In this document: in pieces, positions 836 through 27,891 of the stretch | Numbering within the stretch: position 1 is the first letter of the stretch | Layout: each line of letters starts with the position of its first letter | From: Arcobacter sp. | GTDB taxonomy: Bacteria > Campylobacterota > Campylobacteria > Campylobacterales > Arcobacteraceae | Length of the DNA: 38,026 nt | NCBI GenBank assembly: GCA_002685075.1 | Contig: NYWO01000003.1 | Span: 1 to 38,026 of the forward strand | Direction: 5' to 3' | Program-made: the position numbers and the translations under genes | The notes under the pieces: generated by a model | Seen by the model: only the letters and a program-made list of their open reading frames with translations | Databases searched by the model: none | What the model was told of the DNA's origin: nothing

Positions 836-836
836 A

Positions 837-2096: not shown

Positions 2097-2097
2097 A

Positions 2098-3288: not shown

Positions 3289-4427
3289 TGGAAAAGATAG
3301 TTGATTTTATTCAAGAAACTTTTAAAACAAAAGAATTTATTCCTTTACATGAACCACGTTTTATAGGAAATGAAAAAAAATATTTAAATGATTGTATTGA
3401 TTCTACATTTGTTTCAAGTGTAGGAAAATATGTTGACCAGTTTGAAAAAGAATTTGCTTCAAAAATTGGAAGTAAATATGCAATTGCAACAGTTAATGGA
3501 ACAGCTGCTTTACATATTTCGCTTATTTTAGCAGATGTAAAAAAAGATGATGAAGTAATAACTCAACCACTAACTTTTATAGCAACTTGTAATGCTATAT
3601 CATATATAGGGGCAAAGCCTGTATTTGTTGATGTTGATTTAGATACGATAGGATTATCTCCTAAATCATTAGAAAGCTTTTTAAAAACAAATTGTGAACT
3701 TATTAATAATCAATGTATAAATAAAACTACTAACAAAGTAATAAAAGCTTGTGTCCCTATGCATACTTTTGGACACTCTTGTAGAATTACGGAGATAAAA
3801 GATATATGTGATAAATGGAATATTACTTTAGTAGAAGATGCCGCTGAGTCTTTAGGAAGTTACTATAAAGATAAACATACAGGTACTTTTGGAAAAGTAG
3901 GAGCATTTTCTTTTAATGGAAATAAAATCATTACAAGTGGTGGCGGTGGAGTTATAGTTACTGATGATGAGAAACTAGCTAAAAGAGCAAAACATCTAAC
4001 AACAACAGCAAAGATTCCACATCCTTTTGAATACGTACATGATGAGATAGGATACAACTATAGAATGCCAAACTTAAATGCAGCATTACTTGTAGCTCAA
4101 CTAGAACAACTAGATAAGTTTTGTAAATGTAAAAAAGAATTAGCTTTAAAATATGATGAATTCTTTAATGATATTGAAGGTATTAATTTTATTAATCAAC
4201 CTGAAAATTCATCTTCAAACTATTGGTTACAAGCTATAATTTTTAAAGATTTAAAAGCTAGAGATGAGTTTTTAAAATTTACAAATAAAAATGGTGTTAT
4301 GACTAGACCTATTTGGAAGTTGATGAATGAATTAGTGATGTTTAAAGATTGCCAATCAAGTGACTTAACAAACTCTAAAATTTGTGAAGAAAGAATTGTT
4401 AATATACCAAGTAGTGTAATTTTATAA
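3288..4427 (+). CDS. legC: PLP-dependent 4-aminotransferase (LegC-like, DegT/DnrJ/EryC1 family)
   Basis: Transfers an amino group, normally from glutamate, to C4 of the 4-keto-6-deoxy nucleotide sugar made by LegB. The 379-residue length is normal for the DegT family. The pyridoxal-phosphate lysine is Lys213 in SFNGNK, followed by a glycine-rich TSGGGG stretch; the cofactor-contacting aspartate is in VEDAAES (Asp184). NGTAALH (70-76) forms the usual phosphate-binding start. The ATG overlaps the legB stop by one base (TAATG), so translation is probably coupled. A related but distinct aminotransferase (27892-28998) lies in the bacillosamine-type module; the two share only family-level similarity and are not a recent duplication. 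Confidence 0.88.
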   Translation: MEKIVDFIQETFKTKEFIPLHEPRFIGNEKKYLNDCIDSTFVSSVGKYVDQFEKEFASKIGSKYAIATVNGTAALHISLILADVKKDDEVITQPLTFIATCNAISYIGAKPVFVDVDLDTIGLSPKSLESFLKTNCELINNQCINKTTNKVIKACVPMHTFGHSCRITEIKDICDKWNITLVEDAAESLGSYYKDKHTGTFGKVGAFSFNGNKIITSGGGGVIVTDDEKLAKRAKHLTTTAKIPHPFEYVHDEIGYNYRMPNLNAALLVAQLEQLDKFCKCKKELALKYDEFFNDIEGINFINQPENSSSNYWLQAIIFKDLKARDEFLKFTNKNGVMTRPIWKLMNELVMFKDCQSSDLTNSKICEERIVNIPSSVIL

Positions 4428-5002
4428 TGAAAGAGAAAATTGTTTTAATTGGAGGAGGTGGACATTGTCATAGTGTTATCGATGTAATAGAACAAGAAAA
4501 TAAATATGAAATTATTGGAATTATTGATAAAAAAGAATTACTCGGACAAAAAGTTTTAGGCTATGAAGTAATCGCTTCAGATAATGACTTAAGTGAAATA
4601 TTTAAAACTTGTAAAAATGCAATAATTACTATTGGTCAAATAGAATCAAGTAATTTAAGAACAAAAATATTTAATAATTTAAAAAATATAGGTTATACTT
4701 TACCAGTTATAGTTTCACCTATTGCATATGTTTCAAAGCATTCTTTTATTGAAGAGGGAACAGTAATTCATCATCACACACTAGTTAATGCAAATGTAAG
4801 AATAGGTAAAAATTGTATAATTAACACAAAAGCACTAATTGAACATGATTCAATAATAGAAGATTATTGTCATATATCAACAGCCTCTGTTATAAATGGT
4901 GGTGTTACAGTAAAAAAAGGTACTTTTTTTGGAAGTAATGCAACTTCTAAACAAAGTATAGAAATAGATGGATTTATAAAAGCTGGGAGTTTAGTAAAAT
5001 GA
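4427..5002 (+). CDS. legH: NeuD/PglD-type sugar N-acetyltransferase (LegH-like)
   Basis: Predicted to acetylate the 4-amino group made by LegC, giving the 2,4-diacetamido-2,4,6-trideoxyhexose intermediate. The 191-residue protein has the NeuD/PglD layout: a short N-terminal nucleotide-sugar-binding domain beginning IVLIGGGGHCHSV (residues 5-17), then a left-handed parallel beta-helix of hexapeptide repeats, with the catalytic-type histidines around VIHHHT and IEHDS. It overlaps the aminotransferase stop (TAATG) and the next gene by 4 bp (ATGA). Because neighbours on both sides are legionaminic acid enzymes, the role in this pathway is well supported. An O-acetylating NeuD role on the finished sugar remains possible. 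Confidence 0.83.
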   Translation: MKEKIVLIGGGGHCHSVIDVIEQENKYEIIGIIDKKELLGQKVLGYEVIASDNDLSEIFKTCKNAIITIGQIESSNLRTKIFNNLKNIGYTLPVIVSPIAYVSKHSFIEEGTVIHHHTLVNANVRIGKNCIINTKALIEHDSIIEDYCHISTASVINGGVTVKKGTFFGSNATSKQSIEIDGFIKAGSLVK

Positions 5003-6009
5003 ATAAAGATAAAAAAAATGTATTTATAATTGCAGAAGCAGGTGTTAATCATAATGGTTCTATTGAACTTGCAAAAAAACTAATTGATGTAGCGTACGAA
5101 GCAAAAGTTGATGCTGTTAAATTCCAAACTTTTAAAACTGAAGACTTAGTATCAAAAAATGCACAAAAAGCAGATTATCAAAAAGAAACAACTTCCAAAG
5201 AAGAATCACAATTTGATATGATAAAAAAACTAGAATTAGATGTTGATACTCATAATGAATTGATTTCTTATTGTAATAGTAAAAGTATTATGTTTTTATC
5301 TACTCCCTTTGATCATGATAGTATCAATTTATTAAATAACTTAGGTTTACAAATATTTAAAATACCAAGTGGTGAGATTACAAACCTACCATATTTAAGA
5401 CATATAGGAAGTTTGCAAAAAGAAGTTATATTGTCAACAGGCATGGCTGATATAGGAGAAATAGAGGATGCCTTAGATATTCTGATATCTTCTGGTACAA
5501 GAAAAGATGATATTACTATTTTACATGCAAATACAATGTATCCTACTCCTATGGAAGATGTTAATTTAAAAGCTATGAATACAATAGGAAATACATTTGA
5601 TTGTAAATATGGATATAGTGATCATACTTTAGGAATAGAAGTGGATATTGCAGCTGTTGCTATGGGAGCCTCTTGTATTGAAAAACATTTTACACTTGAT
5701 AAGAATATGGAAGGACCTGATCATAAAGCTAGTTTAGAACCAGATGAATTAATATCAATGGTGAACGCTATACGAAATATAGAATTAGCTTTAGGAAGTA
5801 GTATTAAAAAACCTTCAAAAAGTGAAACTCCAAATATAAAAATAGCTAGAAAATCAATTATCGCAAATAGTGAAATAAAAAAAGGTGATATTCTAACAGA
5901 AAATAATCTAGTAATAAAAAGGCCAGGAAATGGTATTAGTCCAATGAACTGGGACAATATTATAAATACTATTGCTCAAAAAAACTATAATAAAGATGAC
6001 TTAATATGA
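4999..6009 (+). CDS. legI: N,N'-diacetyllegionaminate synthase (NeuB family)
   Basis: Condenses phosphoenolpyruvate with the 6-deoxy 2,4-diacetamido-mannose-type sugar to give the nine-carbon acid. The 336-residue protein contains the NeuB TIM barrel, with signatures AEAGVNHNG near the N-terminus, DAVKFQTF, STPFDHD, IPSGEITN, GYSDHT and IEKHFTLD (metal- and PEP-binding positions of the family), followed by a C-terminal antifreeze-like SAF domain (RKSIIAN ... RPGNGI). Assignment to legionaminic rather than sialic acid rests on position between the LegH-like and LegG-like genes, as in the Campylobacter Cj1319-Cj1332 region. A second, clearly different NeuB is at 20697-21701. Confidence 0.87.
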   Translation: MNKDKKNVFIIAEAGVNHNGSIELAKKLIDVAYEAKVDAVKFQTFKTEDLVSKNAQKADYQKETTSKEESQFDMIKKLELDVDTHNELISYCNSKSIMFLSTPFDHDSINLLNNLGLQIFKIPSGEITNLPYLRHIGSLQKEVILSTGMADIGEIEDALDILISSGTRKDDITILHANTMYPTPMEDVNLKAMNTIGNTFDCKYGYSDHTLGIEVDIAAVAMGASCIEKHFTLDKNMEGPDHKASLEPDELISMVNAIRNIELALGSSIKKPSKSETPNIKIARKSIIANSEIKKGDILTENNLVIKRPGNGISPMNWDNIINTIAQKNYNKDDLI

Positions 6010-7169
6010 AAAAAGTTTGCGTAGTTACAGGTACAAGAGCTGAATATGGTCTTTTATATTGGTTAATGAAAGAAATTGAATTAGATTCACAATTAGAACT
6101 TCAGATTATTGTAACAGGTATGCATTTAAGTCCAGAATTTGGACTTACATACAAAGAGATAGAAAAAGACTTTATTATTAATAAAAAAATAGAGATGCTT
6201 TTATCTTCTGATACTCATATTGGGATTTCAAAATCTATGGGTTTAGCACAGATTTCTTTTGGGGAAAGTTTTGAAGAATTAAAACCTGATATTATAATTT
6301 TATTAGGTGATAGATATGAGATTTTTTCAGCTGCAAGCGCTGCTTTAATTGCAAATATACCCATAGCACATCTTCATGGTGGAGAAACTACTGAGGGTGC
6401 TTTTGATGAATCAATAAGACACAGTATTACAAAAATGAGCCATCTACATTTTACAGCAGCGGATGAATATAAAAACAGAGTTATTCAGCTTGGAGAACAA
6501 CCTAATAGAGTATTTAATGTTGGTGGTATGGGAATAGAAAATATCAAGAGATTAAAATTACTAAGTAAAGATGAATTTGAAAAATCAATTGATTTTAAAT
6601 TAAATAAAAAAAATATTCTTGTTACTTTTCATCCTGTTACTTTAGAAAATAGTACAGCAAAAGAACAATTTCAAGAATTATTAGATGCAATAGATGAACT
6701 AAAAGATACAAATATAATATTTACAAAAGCAAATAGCGATACAGCTGGTAGAATAATAAATCAAATGATAGACACATACGTAAGTAATAATTCTTTAAAA
6801 TCAGTTGGATATACATCTTTAGGCCAACTTAGATATTTATCAGCACTTCAATATGTAGATGCAATGGTAGGTAATAGTTCAAGTGGCTTAATTGAAGCAC
6901 CAAGTTTCAAGATTGCAACTGTTAATATAGGTGATAGACAAAAGGGCAGATTAAAAGCTAGTAGCGTAATTGATTGTGAATCTTTTAAAGCATCTATAAA
7001 AAAAGCCTTTAAAAAAGTTTATTTACAAGGATTTAATGAGTCATTAAAAAACGTAAAGAATCCTTATGGTGATGGTTATGCAAGTGAAAAAATTATTGAA
7101 GTAATAAAAGAAGTTGATTTAAATAATATATTAAAAAAATCATTTTATGATATAAAAAAGGAGAAATAA
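6006..7169 (+). CDS. legG: Hydrolysing nucleotide-sugar 2-epimerase (LegG/NeuC family)
   Basis: Releases the nucleotide from the 2,4-diacetamido sugar with inversion at C2, giving the manno-type substrate for LegI. It is a GT-B-fold UDP-GlcNAc 2-epimerase family member of 387 residues (normal length). Visible signatures are VTGTRAEYGLL at the N-terminus, LLGDRYE, the HLHGGETTEGAFDESIRH block, and the C-terminal VGNSSSGLIEAP loop that holds the nucleotide. The start overlaps legI by 4 bp (ATGA). In C. jejuni neuB2/neuC2 are followed directly by ptmE; here three amidotransferase genes lie between them. The pathway logic (dehydratase, aminotransferase, acetyltransferase, synthase, hydrolysing epimerase) supports legionaminic acid and argues against pseudaminic acid, which uses PseG instead. 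Confidence 0.86.
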   Translation: MKKVCVVTGTRAEYGLLYWLMKEIELDSQLELQIIVTGMHLSPEFGLTYKEIEKDFIINKKIEMLLSSDTHIGISKSMGLAQISFGESFEELKPDIIILLGDRYEIFSAASAALIANIPIAHLHGGETTEGAFDESIRHSITKMSHLHFTAADEYKNRVIQLGEQPNRVFNVGGMGIENIKRLKLLSKDEFEKSIDFKLNKKNILVTFHPVTLENSTAKEQFQELLDAIDELKDTNIIFTKANSDTAGRIINQMIDTYVSNNSLKSVGYTSLGQLRYLSALQYVDAMVGNSSSGLIEAPSFKIATVNIGDRQKGRLKASSVIDCESFKASIKKAFKKVYLQGFNESLKNVKNPYGDGYASEKIIEVIKEVDLNNILKKSFYDIKKEK

Positions 7170-7174
7170 AATAA

Positions 7175-7930
7175 ATGAATACACGAATAATAGTAAAATT
7201 AGATGTAAAACCACCATTCGTAGTAAAACCTGTACATTTTGAAGGTTTAAGAAAGGTAGGTACACCCTCTGAAATGGCAAAAAAATATTATAATCAAGGT
7301 GCAGATGAAATAATGTATATTGATATTGTTTCTTCTTTATATGAAAGAGATATTATATTTGAAGAAATAGAAAAGACAGCTAATGAACTTTATATACCAT
7401 TTGGTGTTGGAGGGGCAGTTAAAAGTATCGATGATTTTTCTAAACTTTTTCATATAGGTGCTGATAAAGTAGCTATAAATACCTTTGCCGTTCAAAAAGA
7501 TCCAACTATTATAAACAAAGCTGCAGAAATTTTTGGAAATCAAGCAGTTGTTGTAAATATAGAAGCTAAGAATTGGAATAGTCATTGGGAGTGCTATACA
7601 GATTGCGGAAGAATTCAATCTGGCAAAGATGTAATAGAATGGGCAAAAGAAGTTGAAAAACGAGGTGCAGGAGAAATTCTTTTGCAATCTGTTGATAAAG
7701 ATGGACGAAATAATGGTTTTGATTTAGAGTTAGCAAAACAGGTAGTTCAGAGTGTAAATATTCCAGTTGTTATTGCAAGTGGAGCAGGAAAACTAGAAGA
7801 TATTAAAAAGCTAATTGAATATGCTAAACCAAGTGGTATTGCAATTGCAAGTTTACTACATTATGATAAAGTTACTATTAATGATATAAAAGAATATTTA
7901 CGAAAAAATAATATAGAGGTTTCAAGATGA
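7175..7930 (+). CDS. hisF: HisF-like ammonia-channel subunit of a sugar amidotransferase complex (WbuZ-type)
   Basis: TIM-barrel paralogue of imidazole-glycerol-phosphate synthase cyclase subunit, 251 residues. In this setting it most likely passes ammonia from the HisH-like glutaminase to the N-acetyl-sugar amidotransferase encoded next, as known for WbpG/HisH2/HisF2-type systems. Visible are RIIVKLDV (Asp10, equivalent to catalytic Asp11 of true HisF), the second-half motif EVEKRGAGEILL and DKDGRNNG. The second catalytic aspartate of true HisF (Asp130, IDAK) is glutamate here (Glu130 in VNIEAK), consistent with loss of the histidine-pathway reaction. There are no other histidine genes nearby. 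An AAGGAG ribosome site lies upstream of the ATG, and the gene overlaps the next by 4 bp. Confidence 0.84.
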   Translation: MNTRIIVKLDVKPPFVVKPVHFEGLRKVGTPSEMAKKYYNQGADEIMYIDIVSSLYERDIIFEEIEKTANELYIPFGVGGAVKSIDDFSKLFHIGADKVAINTFAVQKDPTIINKAAEIFGNQAVVVNIEAKNWNSHWECYTDCGRIQSGKDVIEWAKEVEKRGAGEILLQSVDKDGRNNGFDLELAKQVVQSVNIPVVIASGAGKLEDIKKLIEYAKPSGIAIASLLHYDKVTINDIKEYLRKNNIEVSR

Positions 7931-8523
7931 GTAATATAATTGGAATAGTTAATTATGGTATAGCTGGAAATATTCATAGTATAGAAAAAGCTATCAAAGC
8001 AGCAGGGGGTAAAGTAGTGGTAATTAATCATCCAAGTCAATTTAATGATGTAGATAAACTTGTACTCCCTGGTGTAGGTAGCTTTAAAGATGCAATGCAA
8101 GAACTTGAAAATGATGGTTTTATCATACCTATAAAAGAGAATAAAAAGCCTATTCTAGGTATTTGCCTAGGGATGCAAATATTAGCTACAGTAGGCTTTG
8201 AATATGGAAAAACAGTAGGATTGAATTTTATTGATGCTGAAGTAAAACCTATCTTAGTAGATGCAAAAGTTCCTCATGTTGGATTTAATAATATTGAAGT
8301 TATAAAGAAAAATAGTTTATTAAATGGATTAGAAAAAGAAGAGTTCTATTTTATGCATTCTTTTGAAGTTGTCAATTATACAAATATTGTTACTTTATCA
8401 GAATATGCTAACCATAAGTTTGTTTCTTCTGTGCAGAAAGATAATATTTATGGAGTACAGTTTCATCCGGAAAAAAGTAGAGAAGCTGGTATAAAATTAT
8501 TTAAAAACTTTATTGAATTGTAG
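7927..8523 (+). CDS. hisH: HisH-like glutamine amidotransferase subunit (WbuY-type)
   Basis: Class I glutaminase of 198 residues that would release ammonia from glutamine for the acetamido-to-acetamidino reaction. The triad is intact: Cys80 in LGICLGMQ, His180 and Glu182 in QFHPEKS; the oxyanion segment LPGVGSFKDAM is also present. It overlaps the HisF-like gene by 4 bp and is followed 8 bp later by the amidotransferase, so the three genes form one unit. Sequence alone does not distinguish it from a histidine-biosynthetic HisH; context does, since the partner is an N-acetyl-sugar amidotransferase and the locus makes nonulosonic acids. Confidence 0.86.
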   Translation: MSNIIGIVNYGIAGNIHSIEKAIKAAGGKVVVINHPSQFNDVDKLVLPGVGSFKDAMQELENDGFIIPIKENKKPILGICLGMQILATVGFEYGKTVGLNFIDAEVKPILVDAKVPHVGFNNIEVIKKNSLLNGLEKEEFYFMHSFEVVNYTNIVTLSEYANHKFVSSVQKDNIYGVQFHPEKSREAGIKLFKNFIEL

Positions 8524-8531
8524 GAGAAAAA

Positions 8532-9749
8532 ATGAGTGAATTATTTGGAAAGTATGGGTTGCCGTTAGAAGTTAAATTTTGTAAAAAATGTACTATGAAT
8601 AATCAAAGGCCTTCTTCTACTGTAGAATTCAAGCAAAAAGAAGGTGAAAAGAAAAGAACATTAGCTTTTGGTGAAGATGGCATTTGTGAAGCTTGTAGAT
8701 ATGCAGAAAAAAAGAAGAATATTAATTGGGAAGAAAGACATGAACAGTTAGAAGAATTATGTAATAGATTTAGACGTAATGATGGAAGATATGATGTAGT
8801 AGTTCCTGGTAGTGGGGGAAAAGATAGTGTTCAAGCTGCGCATATATTAAAATATAAATATAATATGAACCCTATTCTAATAACTTGGCCACCAGCTTTA
8901 TATACTGGAATTGGGAAAAGAAATTTTGATGCTTGGTTAGATGCTGGTTTTGCTAATTATACATATAATCAAAATAAAAAACTACATAGATTTTTAACAA
9001 AAAATGCATTTTTGAATTTGGGACATCCTTTCCAACCATTTATATTAGGTCAAAAGAATCTTGCTCCTAGGTTATCGGTATTACTTGATATACCTTTAGT
9101 AATATTTGGAGAAAATGAAGCTGAGTACGGAAATGCGATAGAGGATAATGAAAAACCAACAAGAGATCCTAAATATTATAGTGCAGAAGTGAGTATAAAA
9201 GATTTAGTATTAGGTGGAGTACCTGCAAAAGACTTGATAGATGATTTTGGATTTAAATTATCAGACTTGGAAGCTTATTTCCCTACAAATCCCTATGAAA
9301 TAGAAAAAACAGGTACTGAAGTACATTATCTAGGATATTATGTAAAATGGCATCCTCAAGAAACTTATTATTATTCTGTAGAAAATAGTGATTTTATGCC
9401 TAATGATCATAGAACAGAAGGAAGTTTTAGTAAATATTCTTCTCTTGATGATAAAATTGATTGGCTTCATTATCATACAACTACAATTAAATTTGGTATA
9501 GGTAGAGCTACCTATGATTCTGCACAAGAAGTTAGAAATGGTGATATTACAAGAGATGAAGGAATAGCATTAATTAAAAGATTTGATGGTGAATTTCCAG
9601 AACAGTATATTAAAGATTGTTGTGACTATATGGATATTTCACTACAAGAATATCATGATGCAATAGAAAAATTTCGTTCACCACATCTTTGGGATAAAAG
9701 AAATGGAATATGGGAATTAAAACAACCAATTTGGAAAGAAAATAGATAA
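8532..9749 (+). CDS. N-acetyl-sugar amidotransferase (PseA/WbpG/WbuX family)
   Basis: PP-loop ATP pyrophosphatase predicted to adenylate the carbonyl of an N-acetyl group and replace it with ammonia, giving an acetamidino group. The 405-residue protein shows the PP-loop SGGKDS in VVPGSGGKDSVQ (about residues 92-103) and two N-terminal cysteine pairs (FCKKC and ICEAC) likely to bind zinc. A strong ribosome site (AGGAG) precedes the ATG. In C. jejuni PseA and adjacent hisH/hisF copies act on pseudaminic acid; here no pseudaminic acid genes are visible and the unit is embedded between legG and ptmE, so the substrate is more likely legionaminic acid or its CMP form (my inference). The last codon overlaps the next start (TAATG). 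Confidence 0.85.
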   Translation: MSELFGKYGLPLEVKFCKKCTMNNQRPSSTVEFKQKEGEKKRTLAFGEDGICEACRYAEKKKNINWEERHEQLEELCNRFRRNDGRYDVVVPGSGGKDSVQAAHILKYKYNMNPILITWPPALYTGIGKRNFDAWLDAGFANYTYNQNKKLHRFLTKNAFLNLGHPFQPFILGQKNLAPRLSVLLDIPLVIFGENEAEYGNAIEDNEKPTRDPKYYSAEVSIKDLVLGGVPAKDLIDDFGFKLSDLEAYFPTNPYEIEKTGTEVHYLGYYVKWHPQETYYYSVENSDFMPNDHRTEGSFSKYSSLDDKIDWLHYHTTTIKFGIGRATYDSAQEVRNGDITRDEGIALIKRFDGEFPEQYIKDCCDYMDISLQEYHDAIEKFRSPHLWDKRNGIWELKQPIWKENR

Positions 9750-10795
9750 TGAGAAATATTGATGATATCCTTATTAGAGAAACAACATCTATATTAGAAG
9801 TACTTCAAATTATAGATAGAAGTTCAAAGCAATTAGCAATAGTAGTTGATGAACAAAAAAAATTACTAGGAACAGTCAGTGATGGAGATATCAGAAGAGC
9901 TCTTTTAAAAAATATATCTTTACATGACAGTGTAAAAGATATTTATTTTAAGTCACCTACTGTAGCTAATATAAATGATTCTAAAGAAGAAATCATCAAT
10001 ATATGTAAAATAAAAAAGTTACATCAAATTCCTATCGTAAATAATTATGGAAATTTAGTAGGACTTGAAATTATAGATGAGTTAATATTAAAAGAAAAGA
10101 AAACTAATAAAGTAATTCTAATGGTTGGTGGTCTCGGTACAAGACTTAGGCCACTTACTGATAATATTCCAAAACCAATGCTTAAAGTTGGTAAAAAACC
10201 TATATTAGAAACAATAATAGAAAAATTTGCTGAGTATGGGTATACAAATATTATATTATGTGTAAATTATAAGTCAAATATTATAGAAGATTATTTTGGA
10301 GATGGTAGTGAATTCGGAGTAAATATCGAATATATTTTTGAAGAACAACGTATGGGAACAGCAGGAGCATTAAGTTTATTAAAAGAAAAACCAATTGAGC
10401 CATTTTTTGTGATGAATGGAGATTTACTTACAAATGTAAATTTTGAACATTTAGATAATTATCATAACTCAAATAAATCAATAGGAACAATGTGTGTAAG
10501 AGAGTATGACTTTCAAGTTCCTTATGGTGTTGTAAATATAAAAGATAGTAAAATATTATCCATAGAAGAGAAACCAACACATAAATTTTTTGTAAGTGCT
10601 GGGATATATATGCTATCTCCTGAAATTTTAGAATATATTCCTATAAATAATTTTTATGATATGCCAACACTGTTTGAAAAACTTATTAGTAAAAATAAAA
10701 ACATAATATCATTTCCTCTTCGAGAATATTGGCTTGATATTGGAAGATTAGATGAATATAAAAAAGCAAATGATGAATATGACAAGGTGTTTTAA
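9749..10795 (+). CDS. ptmE: Nucleotidyltransferase with N-terminal CBS pair (PtmE-like)
   Basis: Predicted sugar-1-phosphate guanylyltransferase making GDP-activated glucosamine for the legionaminic acid route, by analogy with PtmE of C. jejuni. The 348-residue protein has two CBS repeats in residues 1-115 (VSDGDIRRALL is the typical end of the first) and a nucleotidyltransferase domain starting at about 120 with GGLGTRLRPLT (127-137) and PKPMLKVGKKP. A CBS-NTP-transferase fusion next to ptmF, ptmB and ptmA homologues in this exact order is the main reason for the name. GTP preference cannot be read from the sequence; UDP or CDP chemistry remains possible. Confidence 0.83.
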   Translation: MRNIDDILIRETTSILEVLQIIDRSSKQLAIVVDEQKKLLGTVSDGDIRRALLKNISLHDSVKDIYFKSPTVANINDSKEEIINICKIKKLHQIPIVNNYGNLVGLEIIDELILKEKKTNKVILMVGGLGTRLRPLTDNIPKPMLKVGKKPILETIIEKFAEYGYTNIILCVNYKSNIIEDYFGDGSEFGVNIEYIFEEQRMGTAGALSLLKEKPIEPFFVMNGDLLTNVNFEHLDNYHNSNKSIGTMCVREYDFQVPYGVVNIKDSKILSIEEKPTHKFFVSAGIYMLSPEILEYIPINNFYDMPTLFEKLISKNKNIISFPLREYWLDIGRLDEYKKANDEYDKVF

Positions 10796-11704
10796 TTGAA
10801 GGTATTACTTATAGGTTTTGGTTCTATTGGAAAAAGACATTATGGGGTTTTATCAAGTTTATCTAAAATAGAATCAATAGATCTAGTCACGAAACAAAAT
10901 ATTGAAGATAAGAAATGCTATAAAACATTAGAAGAAGTTATAGATATATCTAAATATAATTATTTTGTAATAGCATCTGAAACAAATAAACATTATACTC
11001 AATTAAAGTATTTAGAAAATAATGTTAAAAATAAACTAATATTTTGTGAAAAACCTCTTTTTCAATCAAAACAAAATTTAGAAATAAAAAACAATAAAGT
11101 ATTCATAGGATATGTTCTTAGGTTCCATCCTTTACTTGAGAAGTTAAAAATATTTTTGATTGAAGAAGATATAATATTAGTAAATGCAAAATGTGGACAG
11201 TATTTACCAACATGGAGGCTAGATACAGATTATAAAAACTGCTATAGCGCAAAGAAAAAAGAGGGTGGTGGAGTTTTATTAGATTTGAGTCATGAAATAG
11301 ATTATGTTCAGTGGCTTTGTGGAAATATTGATGAAATAAAAAGTTATCAAAGAAAAATCTCAGATTTAGAAATAGATTCTGATGATTTAACTATGTTAAT
11401 AGGGAAAACAAATAAAAATATTATAGTAAATATTTCAATAGATTATATAAGTAAAAGTAGTCATCGGAGACTGCATATAGAAACTTTAGAAAATACTTAT
11501 GAACTTGATTTTATATCTAATAGACTAACTAAAAAAGATAAAAAAGGTTTAGAAGAAATTTATAGTTTTTCGAATCTTGAAAGAAACTATATATTTGAAA
11601 AGATGCATTTAGATATTTTTGAAAAACAAAAAAATATATGTACTTTTAATGAAGCATTAGAAGTAATGGATACTATATCAACTATACAGGAGCAAAACAG
11701 ATGA
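10796..11704 (+). CDS. ptmF: Gfo/Idh/MocA-type oxidoreductase (PtmF-like)
   Basis: NAD(P)-dependent sugar oxidoreductase of 302 residues. The Rossmann motif GFGSIGKRH (residues 7-15) and the family EKP motif in FCEKPLF (84-87) are present, and the C-terminal half carries the GGGVLLDLSHEIDY segment usual in this family. The start is TTG at 10796, directly after the ptmE stop; translation from it gives MKVLLIG, a proper Rossmann start, and no better ATG exists before the nucleotide-binding motif. Position between PtmE- and PtmB-like genes matches the Campylobacter flagellin-glycan cluster, where PtmF is linked to supplying the amino-sugar precursor. The exact reaction is not evident from sequence. 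Confidence 0.8.
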   Translation: MKVLLIGFGSIGKRHYGVLSSLSKIESIDLVTKQNIEDKKCYKTLEEVIDISKYNYFVIASETNKHYTQLKYLENNVKNKLIFCEKPLFQSKQNLEIKNNKVFIGYVLRFHPLLEKLKIFLIEEDIILVNAKCGQYLPTWRLDTDYKNCYSAKKKEGGGVLLDLSHEIDYVQWLCGNIDEIKSYQRKISDLEIDSDDLTMLIGKTNKNIIVNISIDYISKSSHRRLHIETLENTYELDFISNRLTKKDKKGLEEIYSFSNLERNYIFEKMHLDIFEKQKNICTFNEALEVMDTISTIQEQNR

Positions 11705-12405
11705 GTAATATCTTATGTACAATTTGTGCAAGAGGTGGGAGTAAAGGTGTGAAAAACAAAAACATCAAAGAACTAAATGGTAAGCCACTTATCGCATACA
11801 CAATAGAACAAGCAAAAGATTCTGGGCTTTTTGAACATATTGTTATTAGTACAGATAGTGATGATATCGCAAATGTAGCTAAAGAGTATGGTGCTGAAGT
11901 GTTTTTTAAAAGAAGTGAAGAGATGGCAAGTGATACAGCAGGTAAATTAGATGTGATAAAAGATGCATTTAGAAGAAGTGAAGAACACTATAATAAAACT
12001 TTTGACTATCTAATAGATTTAGATGCTACAGCTCCACTTAGAAATGTAGAAGATATTTTAAACTCTTTTAATAAATTTAAAGAAAACGAAAATGATAATC
12101 TAATAACAGCAATGCCAGGTAGAAGAAGTCCATATTTTAATCTTGTAGAGCAAAATAAAGATGGGAAAGTATATTTGTCCAAAACATTAAATAGTGCTGT
12201 TGTACGAAGACAAGACGCACCCAAAAGTTATGATATGAATGCTTCTATTTATATATGGAAAAGAGATATTATTTTAAATGAAGATAAATTGTTTTTAGAA
12301 AAAACTGGTTTATATGTAATGCCAGAAGAAAGATCAATAGATATAGATACAGAACTTGATTACAAATTTGTGGAATTTCTAATAAAAGAGAATAATAATG
12401 CTTAA
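11701..12405 (+). CDS. ptmB: CMP-legionaminic acid synthetase (PtmB/LegF, NeuA family)
   Basis: Activates the nine-carbon acid with CTP to the CMP-sugar used by glycosyltransferases. The 234-residue protein starts with the cytidylyltransferase P-loop-like signature CARGGSKGVKNKN (9-20 region), continues with LNGKPLIAYTIEQA and carries IDLDATAPLR in the middle, where sialic acid enzymes have the LQPTSPLR-type block. That block differs from the second synthetase at 22874-23536 (LQPTSPLR), consistent with different acid substrates for the two enzymes. It overlaps ptmF by 4 bp and ptmA by 8 bp. Confidence 0.86.
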   Translation: MSNILCTICARGGSKGVKNKNIKELNGKPLIAYTIEQAKDSGLFEHIVISTDSDDIANVAKEYGAEVFFKRSEEMASDTAGKLDVIKDAFRRSEEHYNKTFDYLIDLDATAPLRNVEDILNSFNKFKENENDNLITAMPGRRSPYFNLVEQNKDGKVYLSKTLNSAVVRRQDAPKSYDMNASIYIWKRDIILNEDKLFLEKTGLYVMPEERSIDIDTELDYKFVEFLIKENNNA

Positions 12406-13168
12406 AGAAAAGATTGTAGTCATTACAGGTGGAGCTGGACTCATAGGAAAAGAATTTGTAAAAGCAGTTATTGAAAATAATGGCATAGCTATTATTGCAG
12501 ATATAAATGAAGAGATAGGACAAAAAGTAAAAGAAGAACTATCTTCTGAATTAAATAGTTCAAATGTAGATTTTGTAAAATTAGATATAACATCTAAAGA
12601 TTCATTAAAAGAATGTATTAAATATATAGATAAAAAATATGGAAAGATTGATGCCTTAGTAAATAATGCATATCCAAGAAATAAAAACTATGGAAAACAT
12701 TTTTTTGATGTTGAGCATGATAATTTTGTAGAAAACTTAGGATTAAATCTTGGTGGATACTTTACAACTTCACAACAGTTTTCTAAATATTTTCAAAAAC
12801 AAGGTTATGGAAATATTATAAATATATCTTCCATTTATGGAGTTGTAGCTCCTAAGTTTGGAGTTTATGATAATACATCTATGACAATGCCTGTAGAATA
12901 TGCTGCTATAAAAGCAGGACTTATTCATCTTACAAAGTATATGGCAAAATACTTTAAAGGAATGAATATAAAAGTAAATACTTTAAGTCCTGGAGGAATA
13001 TTTGATAATCAACCTAAAGAGTTTTTAGAAAAATACAAAAATGAATGCTTAAATAAAGGGATGCTTGATAAGTCAGATTTAAAAGGTACCTTGGTTTATT
13101 TACTTAGTGATATGAGCAGATATATTAATGGGCAGAATATTGTTGTTGATGATGGATTTAGTTTATAA
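12398..13168 (+). CDS. ptmA: Short-chain dehydrogenase/reductase (PtmA-like)
   Basis: Classical SDR of 256 residues: TGGAGLIG cofactor motif (10-17), NNAYP, catalytic serine in NISSIYG (144-145) and YAAIK (Tyr168, Lys172), with the VNTLSPGGI segment following. In C. jejuni PtmA acts with PtmF and PtmE before LegB in the GDP-sugar branch of legionaminic acid synthesis; conservation of the whole ptmE-F-B-A order here supports the same role. The start ATG lies inside the last codons of ptmB, with an AAAGAG-like site ahead. This is the last gene of the legionaminic acid block; a 33-bp gap follows before the acyltransferase. Confidence 0.82.
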   Translation: MLKEKIVVITGGAGLIGKEFVKAVIENNGIAIIADINEEIGQKVKEELSSELNSSNVDFVKLDITSKDSLKECIKYIDKKYGKIDALVNNAYPRNKNYGKHFFDVEHDNFVENLGLNLGGYFTTSQQFSKYFQKQGYGNIINISSIYGVVAPKFGVYDNTSMTMPVEYAAIKAGLIHLTKYMAKYFKGMNIKVNTLSPGGIFDNQPKEFLEKYKNECLNKGMLDKSDLKGTLVYLLSDMSRYINGQNIVVDDGFSL

Positions 13169-13201: not shown

Positions 13202-13750
13202 ATGTTTTTATTTGAATTTATAAAAAGAATTAAGTTTTGCAAAAACGCAAATAGAATAGGACCTGACATTCCTTTCACACATTGGAGATTGCATTTTAAA
13301 ACGACCATGTTAAAGTTATGTAAAAGGAAATTTAATTATTTTGATGATTCTGCATATTTTAGAGCTGGAGCTTATGCAGAGTTTTGTTCGAATATATCTA
13401 TTGGTAAAAATGTAGTTATTAGACCAAATAGTATGTTGTTTGCGGATGAGAATGCTAAAATAATTATTGAGGATAATGTATTAATAGGTTCAGGGGTACA
13501 TTTTTATGTTGATAATCATAAGTTTGATAGAGTAGACATTCCTTTAATTGAACAAGGATATTATCCATCAGAAGATATTGTAGTTAGAGAAGGTTCATGG
13601 ATTGGTGCTAATAGTATGATATTAACAGGAGTAATTATTGGAAGAAACAGTGTTATAGGTGCAGGAAGTATTGTAACAAAAAGTATTCCTGACTTTTGTG
13701 TTGCAGCAGGTAATCCTGCAAAAGTTATAAAAGTATTAAGTAATGATTAA
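13202..13750 (+). CDS. Hexapeptide-repeat acyltransferase (WbbJ-like)
   Basis: Probable acetyl-CoA-dependent O- or N-acetyltransferase of a glycan or nucleotide sugar, 182 residues. The C-terminal two thirds form a left-handed beta-helix: repeats such as ISIGKNVVIRPN, IIIEDNVLIGSG and VIIGRNSVIGAGSIV, the catalytic-type histidine in YVDNHKFD, and the family ending AAGNPAKVI. The N-terminal 60 residues are basic and not part of the helix. AGAAGG ahead of the ATG is a fair ribosome site. It overlaps the next gene by 8 bp. Substrate unknown; position after the legionaminic block suggests modification of that sugar, which is a guess. Confidence 0.8.
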   Translation: MFLFEFIKRIKFCKNANRIGPDIPFTHWRLHFKTTMLKLCKRKFNYFDDSAYFRAGAYAEFCSNISIGKNVVIRPNSMLFADENAKIIIEDNVLIGSGVHFYVDNHKFDRVDIPLIEQGYYPSEDIVVREGSWIGANSMILTGVIIGRNSVIGAGSIVTKSIPDFCVAAGNPAKVIKVLSND

Positions 13751-15134
13751 TATTTTAATAGTAGCAACTCAAACTCAAAGATTTTTGGACCAGGTTAGAT
13801 TATCAAAAGATTTACAAATTAAAGATGATAAGTTAGAAATATACTATTTTGTATCTAAAGAGGTAACTCAAAGATATAAAAATGAAATAAATAATCAAAA
13901 ACTTAAGATAATAAATATTGATTATAATAAAAAATATGATTTAGAAGAAAATATTTCTGTAAAATCTCGAATAAAAAATATTTTGTCATTAAAATATAAA
14001 TCTGCAATAATTAAATTTATTAATAGTTTTAAAAGTACAAAACTATTTACTAAAAGACTTAAGAAAGAAGAAAAATTATTTTTAGATAGATTAAATGAAA
14101 AGTATAAATGTATTTCAAGACTTGTACATAAAAATAAGATTGATATCATGTTCATAAATGGCGATAGACATCTAGGTTATGAACCAATATTTTTAAAAAT
14201 ATCAAAAAATTTTAATATTCCAACAATTATGCCATATATTGTTTATTTTGCTGAAGAGGAAGGTTTAGTTAAGTCGTCTATTATAAAGAATAGAAAAAAT
14301 ATTTTGATTTCATCTTATATCAAAAAATCACAAGATAAATTTAACTTTCATAGAAGAGGAAATGTTTTTTATTATCCACATACAATAGCAAATGCATTAG
14401 ATAAATTTGGAGTAATTACAGATAACCCATGGTTTATGGGAAGTGGTTTAAGTGATATTATTTGTTTAGCTAATGAGAATATGAAAAAACATTATGTTAA
14501 GAATGGAGTTAAAAAAGAAAAAATAAGAATTATTGGTGATGTTTCTTATGATAAACTTTATTATAAATATATGCAAAAAGAAGATTTAAAAATATATACA
14601 ATAGATAAGTACAAGCTACAAAAAGATAGAAAAAATATAATAATTGCATTACCACAGTTAGGAGAACATGCTATTTTACCTTGGCATGAGCATTGGAAAG
14701 AAATAAATTTTTTGATGGATAATATAGATAACCTAGAACAAAATATTTTAGTTTCATTACATCCTAAAATGGATAAAAGGAAGTATTTATTTTTAGAAGA
14801 TAGATATAATTGTAAAATATTAGAAGAAAGACTTGCTGATATTTTAATAGTATCAGATGTTTTTATAGCTTCATATTCAAGCACAATTTTATGGTCAGTT
14901 ATATGTGGTATAAAAACTGTAATAGTGGATTTCTATAACATTAATGAAACAAGTTTTGATTTTCTAACTAGTATAATGAAAGTTAATAATAAAAAATTAT
15001 TAAAAGAAAAATTAAATGATATATTAGTTAGAAAAGTGGATTTTAATCAAGATTGGGAAAGTCTTTCAAAAAATGAAGTTTTTGATGGTAAAACAATAGA
15101 AAAATATATAAATTTAATAAAAGAGTTAAAATGA
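13743..15134 (+). CDS. GT-B-like glycosyltransferase, candidate nonulosonic acid transferase
   Basis: No certain family match by eye. The 463-residue protein looks cytoplasmic with a two-domain GT-B layout: an N-terminal IVATQTQRF start, an acidic EEEG at 171-174, then a C-terminal domain with SLHPKMD (His340-Pro341) and ASYSST (376-381) followed by a Trp. The order acidic-acidic-Gly, His-Pro, Ser-Ser/Thr is the arrangement known for several bacterial sialyltransferase families, so a CMP-legionaminic or CMP-sialic acid transferase is a reasonable hypothesis. The same His-Pro/Ser pattern also occurs in Kdo transferases and CDP-glycerol transferases, which are the alternatives. It is notably AT- and Lys/Ile/Asn-rich compared with the legionaminic genes. 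Overlaps both neighbours (8 bp and 4 bp). Confidence 0.6.
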   Translation: MINILIVATQTQRFLDQVRLSKDLQIKDDKLEIYYFVSKEVTQRYKNEINNQKLKIINIDYNKKYDLEENISVKSRIKNILSLKYKSAIIKFINSFKSTKLFTKRLKKEEKLFLDRLNEKYKCISRLVHKNKIDIMFINGDRHLGYEPIFLKISKNFNIPTIMPYIVYFAEEEGLVKSSIIKNRKNILISSYIKKSQDKFNFHRRGNVFYYPHTIANALDKFGVITDNPWFMGSGLSDIICLANENMKKHYVKNGVKKEKIRIIGDVSYDKLYYKYMQKEDLKIYTIDKYKLQKDRKNIIIALPQLGEHAILPWHEHWKEINFLMDNIDNLEQNILVSLHPKMDKRKYLFLEDRYNCKILEERLADILIVSDVFIASYSSTILWSVICGIKTVIVDFYNINETSFDFLTSIMKVNNKKLLKEKLNDILVRKVDFNQDWESLSKNEVFDGKTIEKYINLIKELK

Positions 15135-16615
15135 AAAATATAATGATTATAAATTTTAATGATGATTTTTTGCTAAAATTTGTTCATGAAGTTGCAATAG
15201 TTGAGAATATAAAAATTGATTCAATTTTTACTGATATAAAAAAATTATCAAATAAATTTCTAACTCAATTGAATTATAAAGATGTTTATGACTTTTATAG
15301 TTTTGATAAAATAGTAGAATTAAACAATGATTCAGAATATGTTTTAAGTAAAGAGGATATAGAATGTTTTTATTTTTTAGAATCTGAATTTTTGGCAGAA
15401 AGTGATAGAATGTCATATGTTCCAATTTCAGTAAAAAAAAGAAAAATAATATATTATGAAATTCTTCAATACTGGATAAATTATTTTTTACAAAATAAAA
15501 TTGATTTAGTTGTTTTTGACGGTGTACCTCACATGGGATGGGATTTAATTTGTTATGAAGTAGCTAAAAAATTTAAGATACAGGTTTGTTATTTAGAATT
15601 AACAATAATACAAGATCAAGTAATTTGGCATGATGAATATAAATCTTTTAAAAAAAATCATCTACCTGTAAGCTCTTTGAATATTGAGGAAATAAAGAAC
15701 TCTATAGGAAAGGAGAAGCTTCTCAAATATAATGTAGAAGGTGAATTATTAAAATTGGGAAAAAAATTAAATGAAATTAAAACTCAAAAGACTTTTTTAA
15801 ATCTTTCTAAATATAAAATACTTCTTTTAAGTTTCTATAGATTCATTAAAAAAATAAAAGAAAATGCTCTATTAAAGGATAGCTCATTTTTTTATAGTAA
15901 GCCAACTCTTCTTCAATATTTATTTTATAATATGAAAAATAAAAATTATTTATATAAATTAAATAAACAATATGAAGAATTATCTGATAGTATTGATTTA
16001 GATAAAAAGTTTATTTTTTTTGCAATGCACTATCAACCAGAAAGAACTACTTCTCCACAAGGTGAATGTTTCCAAGAACAAATTTTAGCAATTAAAATCA
16101 TTTCTGCTTCTTTACCTGAGAACTGGATATTGTATGTAAAAGAACATCCTACACAAATGATTAATAGAAAGGTATTTAAAAATAAAAATTTTAGGGATTA
16201 TTACGATTATAAAATAATTAAACAACTAAAAAATGTGAAACTGGTTCCTCTTTCTGTAGATAGTGCGATAATTATTGAAAAAGCTCAATTGGTAGCAACT
16301 ATTAATGGAAGTATTGGATGGGAGACATTAATACAGTACAAGAAACCAGTTGCAATTTTTGGAAATATTTGGTATGCACAATGTAGAAGTTGTTTTAGTA
16401 TATCATCAACAGAAGATTTTAAAGATGTACTTAAATTACTAAAAGAACACACTCCAAATGAAGTTGAGAAAAATACACTTAATTTATTAAAATATTATAG
16501 TGATAAATTCTGTATATCATCTGATGGTGATTTTTATGCAAACTATTCATCATTGTCCAAAGATGAATTAATTAAAAATCTTGTAAACAAGTTTATCCAA
16601 GAATATATTGACTAA
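15131..16615 (+). CDS. Capsule-synthesis-like (Kdo/nonulosonate) glycosyltransferase
   Basis: 494-residue protein whose C-terminal half resembles the capsule polysaccharide KpsS/KpsC-related transferase group. Visible are FFAMHYQPERTTSPQGE (residues 296-312), VKEHPTQ (His339-Pro340 region) and NGSIGWE (392-398) followed by KPVAIFGN. The N-terminal half has VFDGVPHMGWD (128-138), a likely acceptor or nucleotide contact. These features fit an enzyme that uses a CMP-activated acid sugar. KpsC/KpsS use CMP-Kdo; here CMP-legionaminate and a second CMP-nonulosonate are made by the same operon, so one of these is the likelier donor (inference). No capsule export genes lie in the window. Stop and the next start abut with no gap. 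Confidence 0.68.
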   Translation: MKNIMIINFNDDFLLKFVHEVAIVENIKIDSIFTDIKKLSNKFLTQLNYKDVYDFYSFDKIVELNNDSEYVLSKEDIECFYFLESEFLAESDRMSYVPISVKKRKIIYYEILQYWINYFLQNKIDLVVFDGVPHMGWDLICYEVAKKFKIQVCYLELTIIQDQVIWHDEYKSFKKNHLPVSSLNIEEIKNSIGKEKLLKYNVEGELLKLGKKLNEIKTQKTFLNLSKYKILLLSFYRFIKKIKENALLKDSSFFYSKPTLLQYLFYNMKNKNYLYKLNKQYEELSDSIDLDKKFIFFAMHYQPERTTSPQGECFQEQILAIKIISASLPENWILYVKEHPTQMINRKVFKNKNFRDYYDYKIIKQLKNVKLVPLSVDSAIIIEKAQLVATINGSIGWETLIQYKKPVAIFGNIWYAQCRSCFSISSTEDFKDVLKLLKEHTPNEVEKNTLNLLKYYSDKFCISSDGDFYANYSSLSKDELIKNLVNKFIQEYID

Positions 16616-18016
16616 ATGAAGAAACTTATTTTTAAGAACACTTTATTATATAGTATACCAGATATAATAACAAAATTATTACCTTTTATTACTTTACCTA
16701 TAGTTACTAGATATTTGACAATTGATGAAATTGGATTAATAGGAATTTATGGAATAGTGATAGCTTTATATTCATTGTTTTCCCAGTTTGGAGTAGCTTA
16801 TGTAATAAACTCACAATGGTTTAAATTATCTATTAAAAATAGAGAAGTATTATTATACAATTTATTTTTAATTGGAATAATATTAAGTTTTTTAGCAATA
16901 ATATTATTTCTTATAATTAAAAATTTGATCACACCTTTAGCAATAGGAGATAATTGGGACAATTTAAAAAATCTTACACCTTTTATACTTATACAAGTTT
17001 TTTTTGCAGGGGTAAAAAGTTTATTTGATAGCTTTATGATTATCACAAGAAATGTAATTCTAGTATTAAAGTTGTCAATTTTTACAGTAGTTATCAATAC
17101 TACATTATTTTTGTATATGGTCATAATTACTTCTGACATTTTTTATATTTTGGGAACACAGGCATTAATAGCAAGTTTTATTGGAATAATATATTCTTAT
17201 ATTATTTTAAAGAACTGTAGATTCAAATTTAATAAATATTTTTGGTACAAGACATTTTTCATTAGTTATCCTATTTATATCCGTTCATTATTTAATTTCA
17301 TTCGAAATAGATATGATAAAATGTATATTGCTAATATATTAGGGAGTGCAAATTTTGCCATATACAATTTTGCATTTAGTGTATCATCAATTTTAAGTTT
17401 GCTTGGAAGTGCATTTGATAAAAGTTATTCTCCATTGCTAATAGAAAATATATCAAAAAATGAAAAAGACAATAGTGCATTATCATTTATGATTTTTTTA
17501 TATTTTGTTATAATGGTTACAATTTTAATCATATTTTTTTTTCTAGGCAAACCTTTAATAAACTTAATTTCTAATAGCTTATTTAGAGAATCTTATGATT
17601 ACATATTATTACTTTTTTTGAATCCATTGATTTCTTCATTTGCTTTAAGTAGTGGTAATATTTTAATCTATTATGAAAAAACAAAATTTATTTTATTTAC
17701 TACAGTAGTACAAGCATTAATAACCATATCTTTTATAGTCCTATTTGTTCCAATTTTAGGAGCAAAGTTTGCAATTATTTCTATTTTAATAGGTACATTA
17801 TATTATTCAACACATCAGTATATGGTGAGTAAAAAGCTTTTCCAAATTGAATTAAAAGAAAATATATTAATAATCTATAGTTTTTTATTTTCTTTAATTA
17901 TTTTTGATAAAGTATATTTTCATTTTATTAATTTTAATTTACTTAGTTGTTTATTTATAATACTCTATACTTTTATATTATGTCATTTATATTACAGATA
18001 TTTAAGGAAATATTAA
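16616..18016 (+). CDS. wzx: Wzx-type polysaccharide flippase (MOP superfamily)
   Basis: Polytopic inner-membrane protein of 466 residues with about 12-14 hydrophobic helices, predicted to flip an undecaprenyl-diphosphate-linked oligosaccharide to the periplasmic face. The start KNTLLYSIPDII and the following LLPFITLPIVTRYLTIDEIGLIG are typical of Wzx/RfbX proteins (charged helix 1, then the DxGxxG-like loop). A central basic loop (RSLFNFIRNRYDKMYIAN) is also usual. It contains a run of nine T residues at about 17534-17542 inside a Phe/Leu-rich helix. Lies between the transferases and the MBOAT pair. A drug-efflux MATE role is unlikely in this setting. Confidence 0.88.
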   Translation: MKKLIFKNTLLYSIPDIITKLLPFITLPIVTRYLTIDEIGLIGIYGIVIALYSLFSQFGVAYVINSQWFKLSIKNREVLLYNLFLIGIILSFLAIILFLIIKNLITPLAIGDNWDNLKNLTPFILIQVFFAGVKSLFDSFMIITRNVILVLKLSIFTVVINTTLFLYMVIITSDIFYILGTQALIASFIGIIYSYIILKNCRFKFNKYFWYKTFFISYPIYIRSLFNFIRNRYDKMYIANILGSANFAIYNFAFSVSSILSLLGSAFDKSYSPLLIENISKNEKDNSALSFMIFLYFVIMVTILIIFFFLGKPLINLISNSLFRESYDYILLLFLNPLISSFALSSGNILIYYEKTKFILFTTVVQALITISFIVLFVPILGAKFAIISILIGTLYYSTHQYMVSKKLFQIELKENILIIYSFLFSLIIFDKVYFHFINFNLLSCLFIILYTFILCHLYYRYLRKY

Positions 18017-19501: not shown

Positions 19502-19502
19502 G

Positions 19503-22872: not shown

Positions 22873-22873
22873 T

Positions 22874-24735: not shown

Positions 24736-24829
24736 ATAACAAAATATAAAGTTATTTAAAAGTAGACATTTAATTTAGTTTTATTAAAAATATTAGAAGT
24801 TACAAAATTTATAGATAGGAAGAATATAG
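24736..24829. other. 94-bp intergenic gap within the glycan locus
   Basis: The only non-coding gap larger than about 35 bp between 837 and 31792. It is very AT-rich (about 20 % GC) and holds no clear hairpin terminator. TATAAA- and TTACAAAA-like strings could serve as a -10 element, but every stretch this AT-rich offers such matches, so I do not call a promoter. An AGGAAGA ribosome site at the right end belongs to the TTG-started GT2 gene. It separates the second nonulosonic acid block from the pgl-like initiation block and may mark a cassette junction. Confidence 0.45.
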
Positions 24830-25618: not shown

Positions 25619-25626
25619 GGTATTAA

Positions 25627-27887: not shown

Positions 27888-27891
27888 AATA

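Follow-up and report, generated by a model that had tools for sequence, protein, structure and literature searches.

The window analysed here is the whole 38,026-nucleotide stretch at the start of contig NYWO01000003.1 in an Arcobacter sp. assembly (G000:C3:1-38026; base 1 is the contig start), and its central feature is a block of four genes of the ptmE-F-B-A type. We found that this block closes a cassette predicted to make a legionaminic acid (Leg) type sugar, which, with a probability of roughly 0.78, is bound for a lipid-linked surface glycan that depends on Wzx. In this organism the Leg-type sugar is unlikely to be placed on flagellin. This reading was preferred because flagellins are present in the genome, Maf was undetected, and an island of maf and pseB known from the recA side of a congener is missing. 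The ptm gene names alone are no proof of flagellin glycosylation. The neighbours must also be read, because the same block adjoins Maf in some loci and surface-polysaccharide genes in others.

The cassette and its polysaccharide setting

The four open reading frames (ORFs) occupy 9749-13168 on the plus strand and are adjacent or overlapping, within a run of plus-strand genes that is unbroken from base 2 to 31792 in the ORF list (Table 1). LegC, NeuB, NeuC, a CMP (cytidine monophosphate) sugar synthetase and PtmE are all present together, as in a CMP-Leg cassette of the guanosine diphosphate (GDP) route, and positions 2080-13168 are interpreted as encoding CMP-legionaminic-acid-type biosynthesis by way of GDP-sugars, the enzyme activities being predicted from family matches. 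A flippase, an initiating transferase and glycosyltransferases follow in the same run, which is the make-up of a Wzx-dependent lipid-linked polysaccharide locus.

We take cj1330 and cj1332 of C. jejuni to be PtmF and PtmA. The published numbers for LegI (cj1327), LegG (cj1328), PtmE (cj1329) and LegF (cj1331) agree with the order NeuB-NeuC-PtmE-[F]-B-[A] (PMC3438082). The window departs from the C. jejuni arrangement in two respects: neuC is separated from ptmE by HisF, HisH and an amidotransferase, and the 4,6-dehydratase belongs to another type.

In the mechanism that we propose, PtmE, probably with PtmF and PtmA, would supply a GDP-linked amino sugar that the dehydratase, LegC, acetyltransferase, NeuC and NeuB would turn into a Leg-type nonulosonic acid, to be activated with CMP by PtmB. 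The HisF-HisH-amidotransferase set would probably introduce an acetamidino substitution. The PglC-type enzyme would then start the repeat on a lipid carrier, glycosyltransferases of the cluster would attach the Leg-type sugar and, probably, another nonulosonic acid, and Wzx would flip the unit, giving an O-antigen- or capsule-like glycan. The exact sugar, the linkage and the final carrier are those that we infer from the genes.

Table 1. Genes of the window by position; Pgl names at 27345..31792 were given by resemblance.
Feature	Position	Strand	Supporting match
NAD-dependent epimerase (cut by contig start) and nucleotide-sugar dehydrogenase	2..2096	+	PF01370; UDPG_MGDP_dh
4,6-dehydratase, E. 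coli/3pvz type	2080..3288	+	PDB 3pvz, 743.6 bits over 397 residues
LegC-family aminotransferase	3288..4427	+	TIGR04181, 570.6 bits, above cut-off
NeuD-type acetyltransferase, NeuB synthase (4999), NeuC hydrolysing epimerase (6006)	4427..7169	+	TIGR03570, TIGR03569, TIGR03568, all above cut-off
HisF, HisH, N-acetyl sugar amidotransferase (PtmG/WbuX type)	7175..9749	+	TIGR03573, 322 bits, above cut-off
PtmE-type nucleotidyltransferase with CBS domain	9749..10795	+	PF00571 and PF00483 (NTP_transferase); 82% to G203
PtmF-type oxidoreductase	10796..11704	+	GFO_IDH_MocA domains
PtmB/LegF-type CMP-sugar synthetase	11701..12405	+	PF02348 (CTP_transf_3); NeuA-type PDB chains
PtmA-type short-chain dehydrogenase (SDR)	12398..13168	+	NF006619 above cut-off; NF050062 ('flagellin modification protein PtmA') 297 bits, under its cut-off of 350
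Hexapeptide acyltransferase, next after PtmA	13202..13750	+	PF00132
Two putative GT-B proteins	13743..16615	+	Weak PF02350 and PF05159 matches, below cut-off
Wzx-type flippase	16616..18016	+	PF01943, 62 bits, above cut-off
MBOAT acyltransferase and 393-aa protein without family	18017..20684	+	PF03062, 143.7 bits; second protein without Pfam match
Second NeuB-NeuC-NeuA set	20697..23536	+	PF03102; TIGR03568 above cut-off; PF02348
Surface-carbohydrate protein, GT2, GT4	23536..26751	+	Family scans (TIGR04396 below cut-off for the first)
PglC-type initiating sugar-phosphate transferase, 199 aa	26756..27355	+	PF02397 (Bac_transf), 220.5 bits
PglD-, PglE- and PglF-like genes and GalE-like epimerase	27345..31792	+	Hexapeptide; DegT 313 bits; epimerase families; PseB/FnlA-type domain 276-550

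Maf and flagellin genes in the genome and its congeners

No ORF of the window was matched by a Maf model, so that it does not have the make-up of a flagellin locus, and flagellin families gave no match among the window proteins covered by the family-library scans, namely those up to 31792. The first-pass annotation had described four genes in the C. jejuni order, joined to a flippase (Wzx) and an initiator of the PglC type, in 38 kb devoid of Maf and flagellin; the order is confirmed by families and ORF positions, both partner genes lie in the plus-strand run (at 16616 and 26756), and the absence was borne out for the scanned proteins. Its suggestion that legionaminic acid goes onto a lipid-linked oligosaccharide was supported as far as a lipid-linked surface glycan is concerned, but the sugar may be 8-epi-legionaminic instead of legionaminic acid, and the carrier may be O-antigen, capsule or glycoprotein instead of lipooligosaccharide. 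It had also proposed a genome-wide search for both gene families, in which flagellins were found and Maf was not detected by three approaches.

The assembly comprises 2.68 Mb in 161 contigs, with completeness of 86.5% and contamination of 4.25%. Maf was sought in it with PF01973 (0 matches, the control for this model being positive in four archaea only), PF20157 (0 matches) and a 9-sequence alignment, A1 (0 matches). As controls, PF20157 matched 242 of the 298 genomes of the phylum sample, 18 of the 20 other family members among them, and A1 matched 75/104 family genomes, some of which had supplied A1 sequences. Among the nine other genomes of the genus three matched A1; those without a match include G372, G373 and G377, for which 100% completeness is listed. 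Flagellin matches by PF00669 were found on contigs C57, C43 and C28, accompanied by Flagellin_C on C57 and C43, and the C43 flagellin locus gave no Maf match in the 20 kb read. Apart from the two NeuB proteins of the window, no PseI-family synthase was detected in the assembly.

On C57, trmA is followed by an AAA gene and a flagellin of 608 aa; 413 bp then separate this flagellin from recA, after which comes enolase. The complete congener G370 has a trmA 73%, a recA 94% and an enolase 95% identical to ours. Between its trmA and its recA-enolase pair stand twelve flagellin genes, then Maf, then a stretch of about 12 kb that holds PseB (TIGR03589, 554 bits; cut-off 408) and a NeuB-like gene. Because the flagellin-recA gap is 413 bp against a 14-kb maf/pseB island in G370, the island is missing beside recA in our genome, and this contrast lies within a single genus. 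Maf also adjoins flagellin in G369 and lies near recA-enolase in G371. The recA-enolase flagellin locus makes it less likely that the absence of Maf is purely an artefact of assembly gaps.

Some features of these loci were noted separately. The flagellin beside recA on C57 (L046 1265-4583) has 608 aa, against 282-287 aa for the twelve tandem flagellins of G370, which directly precede one Maf gene (3386769-3399176; L250 6769-19176). The gene between trmA and flagellin on C57 (L046) is of the AAA/DUF234 type.

Identity of the sugar and history of the block

The product could be 8-epi-legionaminic acid (8-epi-Leg), perhaps as 8eLeg5Am7Ac, in an unchanged setting; we consider this quite possible, although somewhat short of an even chance. 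In the family scan the window dehydratase (2080-3288) gave no match to the TIGR04180 LegB model of Campylobacter-like loci, and it is 75-80% identical to the dehydratases of three E. coli loci. Being of this E. coli/PDB 3pvz type, it may serve Leg as well as 8-epi-Leg. Published 8-epi-Leg products include the O-antigens of V. fischeri (PMC7940393) and of E. coli O61, with its elg genes (PMC3628348), and 8eLeg5Am7Ac in A. salmonicida lipopolysaccharide (LPS; PMC7371886). On the other side, in E. coli the same dehydratase type adjoins a flippase gene of the O161 family, and a Leg derivative was reported in the O161 O-antigen (PMC10609480; also PMC4875605), so that the dehydratase type does not decide the isomer.

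Residues of the NeuB family were also compared in order to place the two NeuBs as Neu, Leg or Pse synthases, with positions counted by hand on 1xuu alignments and diagnostic positions taken from PMC7371886, according to which residue 184 is Tyr for Leg and Ser for Pse, and residue 132 is Phe for Pse. By this hand count position 132 is Ser in both window NeuBs, and 184 is Thr in NeuB1 and Ser in NeuB2, a conflicting signal. By analogy, the HisF-HisH-amidotransferase set probably confers an acetamidino substitution on the Leg-type sugar, a Legionella ptmG homologue having been tied to the acetamidino group (PMC3766260).

Several characterised or sequenced systems were compared with the window. 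One of the closest is an elg/wei-type Leg/8eLeg cassette of the O-antigen region in E. coli S30 (L239), directly after galF and without annotated serotype, that shares the dehydratase (80%), LegC, neuC, neuB, acetyltransferase and PtmE-F-B-A in the same order. Unlike the window, it has neuC-neuB-acetyltransferase reversed, lacks HisF-HisH-amidotransferase in its stretch and shows 31-55% identity apart from the dehydratase. In Campylobacter-type flagellar loci (g19 rows such as L131, which we take to be Campylobacter) the order NeuB-NeuC-PtmE-F-B-A is shared, with 44% identity for PtmE and 63% for PtmB, but Maf and flagellin follow, the dehydratase is of the TIGR04180 type and no HisF-HisH lies between neuC and ptmE. 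A Rhizobium sp. WL3 plasmid stretch with an ABC transporter holds relatives of LegC, NeuC, NeuB, PtmE-F-B-A (same order), amidotransferase, HisF and HisH (the window proteins are 44% and 32-35% identical to its annotated WbuZ and HisH), together with both GT-B proteins, NeuB2 (50-53%), NeuC2 (59%) and NeuA2 (41%), although its dehydratase is of the TIGR04180 type, unlike that of the window.

The flagellar island of Plesiomonas shigelloides 302-73 is reported to carry LegB (Elg1/WvaM type)-LegC-LegG-LegI-LegH-PtmE-PtmF-LegF-PtmA as in the window, with a WeiJ-like acetyltransferase likewise listed after PtmA, but it is flanked by flagellar regions and serves to modify flagellin (PMC4481668). Its proteins have a reported mean identity of 63.9% to the Leg proteins of the E. 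coli O161 O-antigen (PMC4875605). Legionella pneumophila carries Leg with a 5-acetamidino group in its O-antigen, with NeuA/B/C and a ptmG homologue in the LPS locus; unlike the window, this is described as a uridine diphosphate (UDP) bacillosamine route, and ptmE/F/A are not named in that description (PMC3766260). In the same family as our organism, Arcobacter butzleri RM4018 has a strain-variable O-antigen region with wbpG, hisH and hisF, and a term search of the paper returned no Leg or ptm gene (PMC2147049). Use of such cassettes in both settings is thus already on record, in E. coli S30 and in Plesiomonas/O161 (PMC4875605, PMC4481668). The window is a clear, mostly ordinary example: the same gene set is known in sugar-coat clusters of other bacteria including E. 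coli, and Leg and 8-epi-Leg O-antigens have been published. Within the open-access library searched, no paper was recognised as describing the cluster itself.

We then assessed how common each setting is. PtmE matches at E <= 1e-40 occurred in 121 of the 298 phylum genomes, some being the nucleotidyltransferase part of longer proteins. Flanks of about 10 kb per side were read for 86 of the 90 phylum matches above domain-only rank (window excluded; G116, G100, G140 and G293 were left out). Together with the window, the best 80 of 444 named loci and 7 plasmid loci of Alphaproteobacteria, this gave 174 loci (87 from the phylum sample), reduced to 161 rows by removing duplicate PtmE sequences as well as PtmE ORFs no longer than 300 aa. 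The rows comprise 46 with Maf, 81 non-Maf (no Maf in the stretch read and >=6 kb on each side) and 34 truncated; L055, L060, L062 and L065, cut at PtmE by region borders, were labelled non-Maf by hand.

The exact E-F-B-A order was found in 26 Maf rows, 20 non-Maf rows (window included; G272, L064/L065, has the order across such a cut and is outside this count) and 7 truncated rows. Flagellin matches were confined to the Maf side of this comparison (28/46 versus 0/81), and a polysaccharide marker by narrow models was found in 42/81 non-Maf and 7/46 Maf rows. The 3pvz-type dehydratase was frequent in both classes (20/46 Maf, 50/81 non-Maf). Relatives above 200 bits of the acyltransferase at 13202-13750 were recorded in 8/81 non-Maf rows (window counted), 0/46 Maf rows and 1/34 truncated rows, and the full HisF, HisH and amidotransferase set in 8 non-Maf, 1 Maf and 2 truncated rows. 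The long order dehydratase-LegC-NeuD-NeuB-NeuC-HisF-HisH-amidotransferase-PtmE also occurs in G203 (L050), L150, L154 and L229; L214 has it with a TIGR04180-type dehydratase and adjoins two Maf genes and flagellin. As a separate observation, PtmE 58-73% identical to that of the window was encountered in L171, L173, L175, L186, L198, L217 and L229, the seven record titles reading Hahellaceae, Devosia, Methylococcales, Spirochaetia, Gallionella, Aquificota and SAR86, which points to transfer between phyla or misbinned contigs.

According to the first-pass annotation, the block had moved out of its flagellar context. A one-off transfer of the flagellar operon was rejected because the exact order occurs in 20/81 non-Maf rows and in E. 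coli S30. The milder proposal, that the block, or ptmF-B-A alone, was taken from a Maf-side locus into the polysaccharide locus, appears unlikely. On a quick PtmE tree (SH-aLRT, an approximate likelihood ratio test, as its only support; long outgroup branches; 127 rows labelled; rooted on the Alphaproteobacteria plasmid rows, or on one of them if they did not form one clade), at least 15 Maf/non-Maf changes are needed, the root is non-Maf, and 10-14 changes lead to Maf with 1-5 back. All states reconstructed along the path between the root and the window are non-Maf, as are the sister and near rows of the window. The tree of PtmF, PtmB and PtmA (63 rows, midpoint root) needs at least 7 changes, and its deepest rows are non-Maf under that midpoint root only.

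This second tree also holds what speaks for relocation: the nearest rows by path are the Maf-side L101 and L158 (0.30), with identities to the window of 86% for PtmB, 82-83% for PtmA and 76-78% for PtmF, although the non-Maf L177 (0.31) and L153 (0.37) are nearly as near. The window moreover departs from its PtmE sister G203 after ptmE, identity being 75-92% from the dehydratase through PtmE and 38% for PtmB. The E-F-B-A block may be a mosaic with an F-B-A part of undecided source. With both settings common, PtmE non-Maf throughout and F-B-A leaving the source undecided, the earlier claim of a move was not sustained. A possible recombination junction was noted after ptmE (9749-11704), G203 having no F and A beside PtmE.

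The carrier and the second nonulosonate set

A counterpart of the polysaccharide locus was found in G370 (C1, about 996-1009 kb). Its epimerase is 90%, dehydrogenase 86%, GTx13 (the gene at 13743) 52%, NeuB2 84%, NeuC2 88% and NeuA2 74% identical to those of the window, and a flippase-like gene is also present. Its first module is a different NeuB/NeuC/HisF/HisH/amidotransferase/NeuA set. Such a difference in the first nonulosonate module between congeners, with the rest largely common, fits exchange inside a polysaccharide locus. The G370 locus is preceded by a gene with weak likeness to Wzc and by an EpsE-like export gene, the latter at 117 bits and under its cut-off. The 80 kb read there contain no Maf. 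The first-pass annotation had named Maf genes immediately upstream of base 1 as part of what would refute it; base 1 is the end of our contig, and in G370 the 40 kb ahead of the epimerase counterpart are free of Maf.

Several points weigh against a lipid-linked surface glycan as the destination. No Wzy was recognised among the window proteins, none of the window's glycosyltransferases was assigned confidently (Pfam at E 5 added nothing firm), and single-sequence structure models of the two GT-B proteins had a mean predicted local distance difference test score (pLDDT) of 33.7 each. As many as 39/81 non-Maf rows lack a polysaccharide marker by narrow models, the nearest F-B-A rows are on the Maf side, and a Maf gene could sit in the missing part because the genome is 86.5% complete.

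It appears quite unlikely that the lipid-linked oligosaccharide goes to proteins by general O- or N-glycosylation instead of to lipid A or capsule. PglC/D/E/F-like genes in the cluster favour such a transfer, as do two proteins of the Wzy_C (O-antigen ligase/polymerase) family elsewhere in the genome, on C61 and C17; PglL-type transferases also belong to this family. The two Wzy_C proteins equally count in favour of the surface-glycan reading. The genes of export and chain-length type that precede the locus in G370 argue against transfer to proteins. No STT3/PglB match was found, a search that could miss bacterial PglB because, of the 14 named genomes in its control, four archaea alone gave a match.

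It is very unlikely that a Maf encoded elsewhere in the genome also draws on CMP-Leg from this cluster to decorate flagellin: some genomes, for instance G203 (C13 and C4) and G187 (C23 and C39), do combine PtmE without nearby Maf with Maf elsewhere, and the assembly is incomplete, but the three Maf searches were empty, the gap on C57 is 413 bp, six of the nine other genus genomes (three listed as 100% complete) gave no Maf match and G370 has its own PseB-type set beside Maf.

We also examined the second NeuB-NeuC-NeuA set, which suggests two nonulosonic acids in the glycan. NeuB2 matches at E <= 1e-85 were found in our genome alone among the 298 of the phylum sample, NeuC2 at E <= 1e-80 in 3/104 family genomes (own included), and the best plasmid relatives of the set were those of Rhizobium sp. 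WL3. The product of this set may be either a Neu-type acid from UDP-N-acetylglucosamine or an acid derived from UDP-bacillosamine; in the second case the PglD/E/F-like genes, which may supply a bacillosamine-type sugar, would feed the pathway. The GT-B proteins at 13743..16615 are candidate nonulosonate transferases: relatives at 121 and 133 bits (26% identity) adjoin NeuB2 in Rhizobium WL3, and the proteins contain HP and S[S/T] letters, which we take to be sialyltransferase motifs.

More tentatively, and at rather less than even odds, the glycan may carry two different nonulosonic acids made by separate CMP-sugar sets, with both sets and the GT-B pair forming a cross-phylum module (Rhizobium plasmid), with exchange of the export system (Wzx or ABC) and also, in G370, of the first nonulosonate module. 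Given the second set and the GT-B pair, how many nonulosonic acids such a coat contains, and in what order, can be put to the test. The MBOAT protein and its 393-aa neighbour (18017-20684) are perhaps an O-acylation pair, relatives of the MBOAT protein above 700 bits being recorded in L163 and L182.

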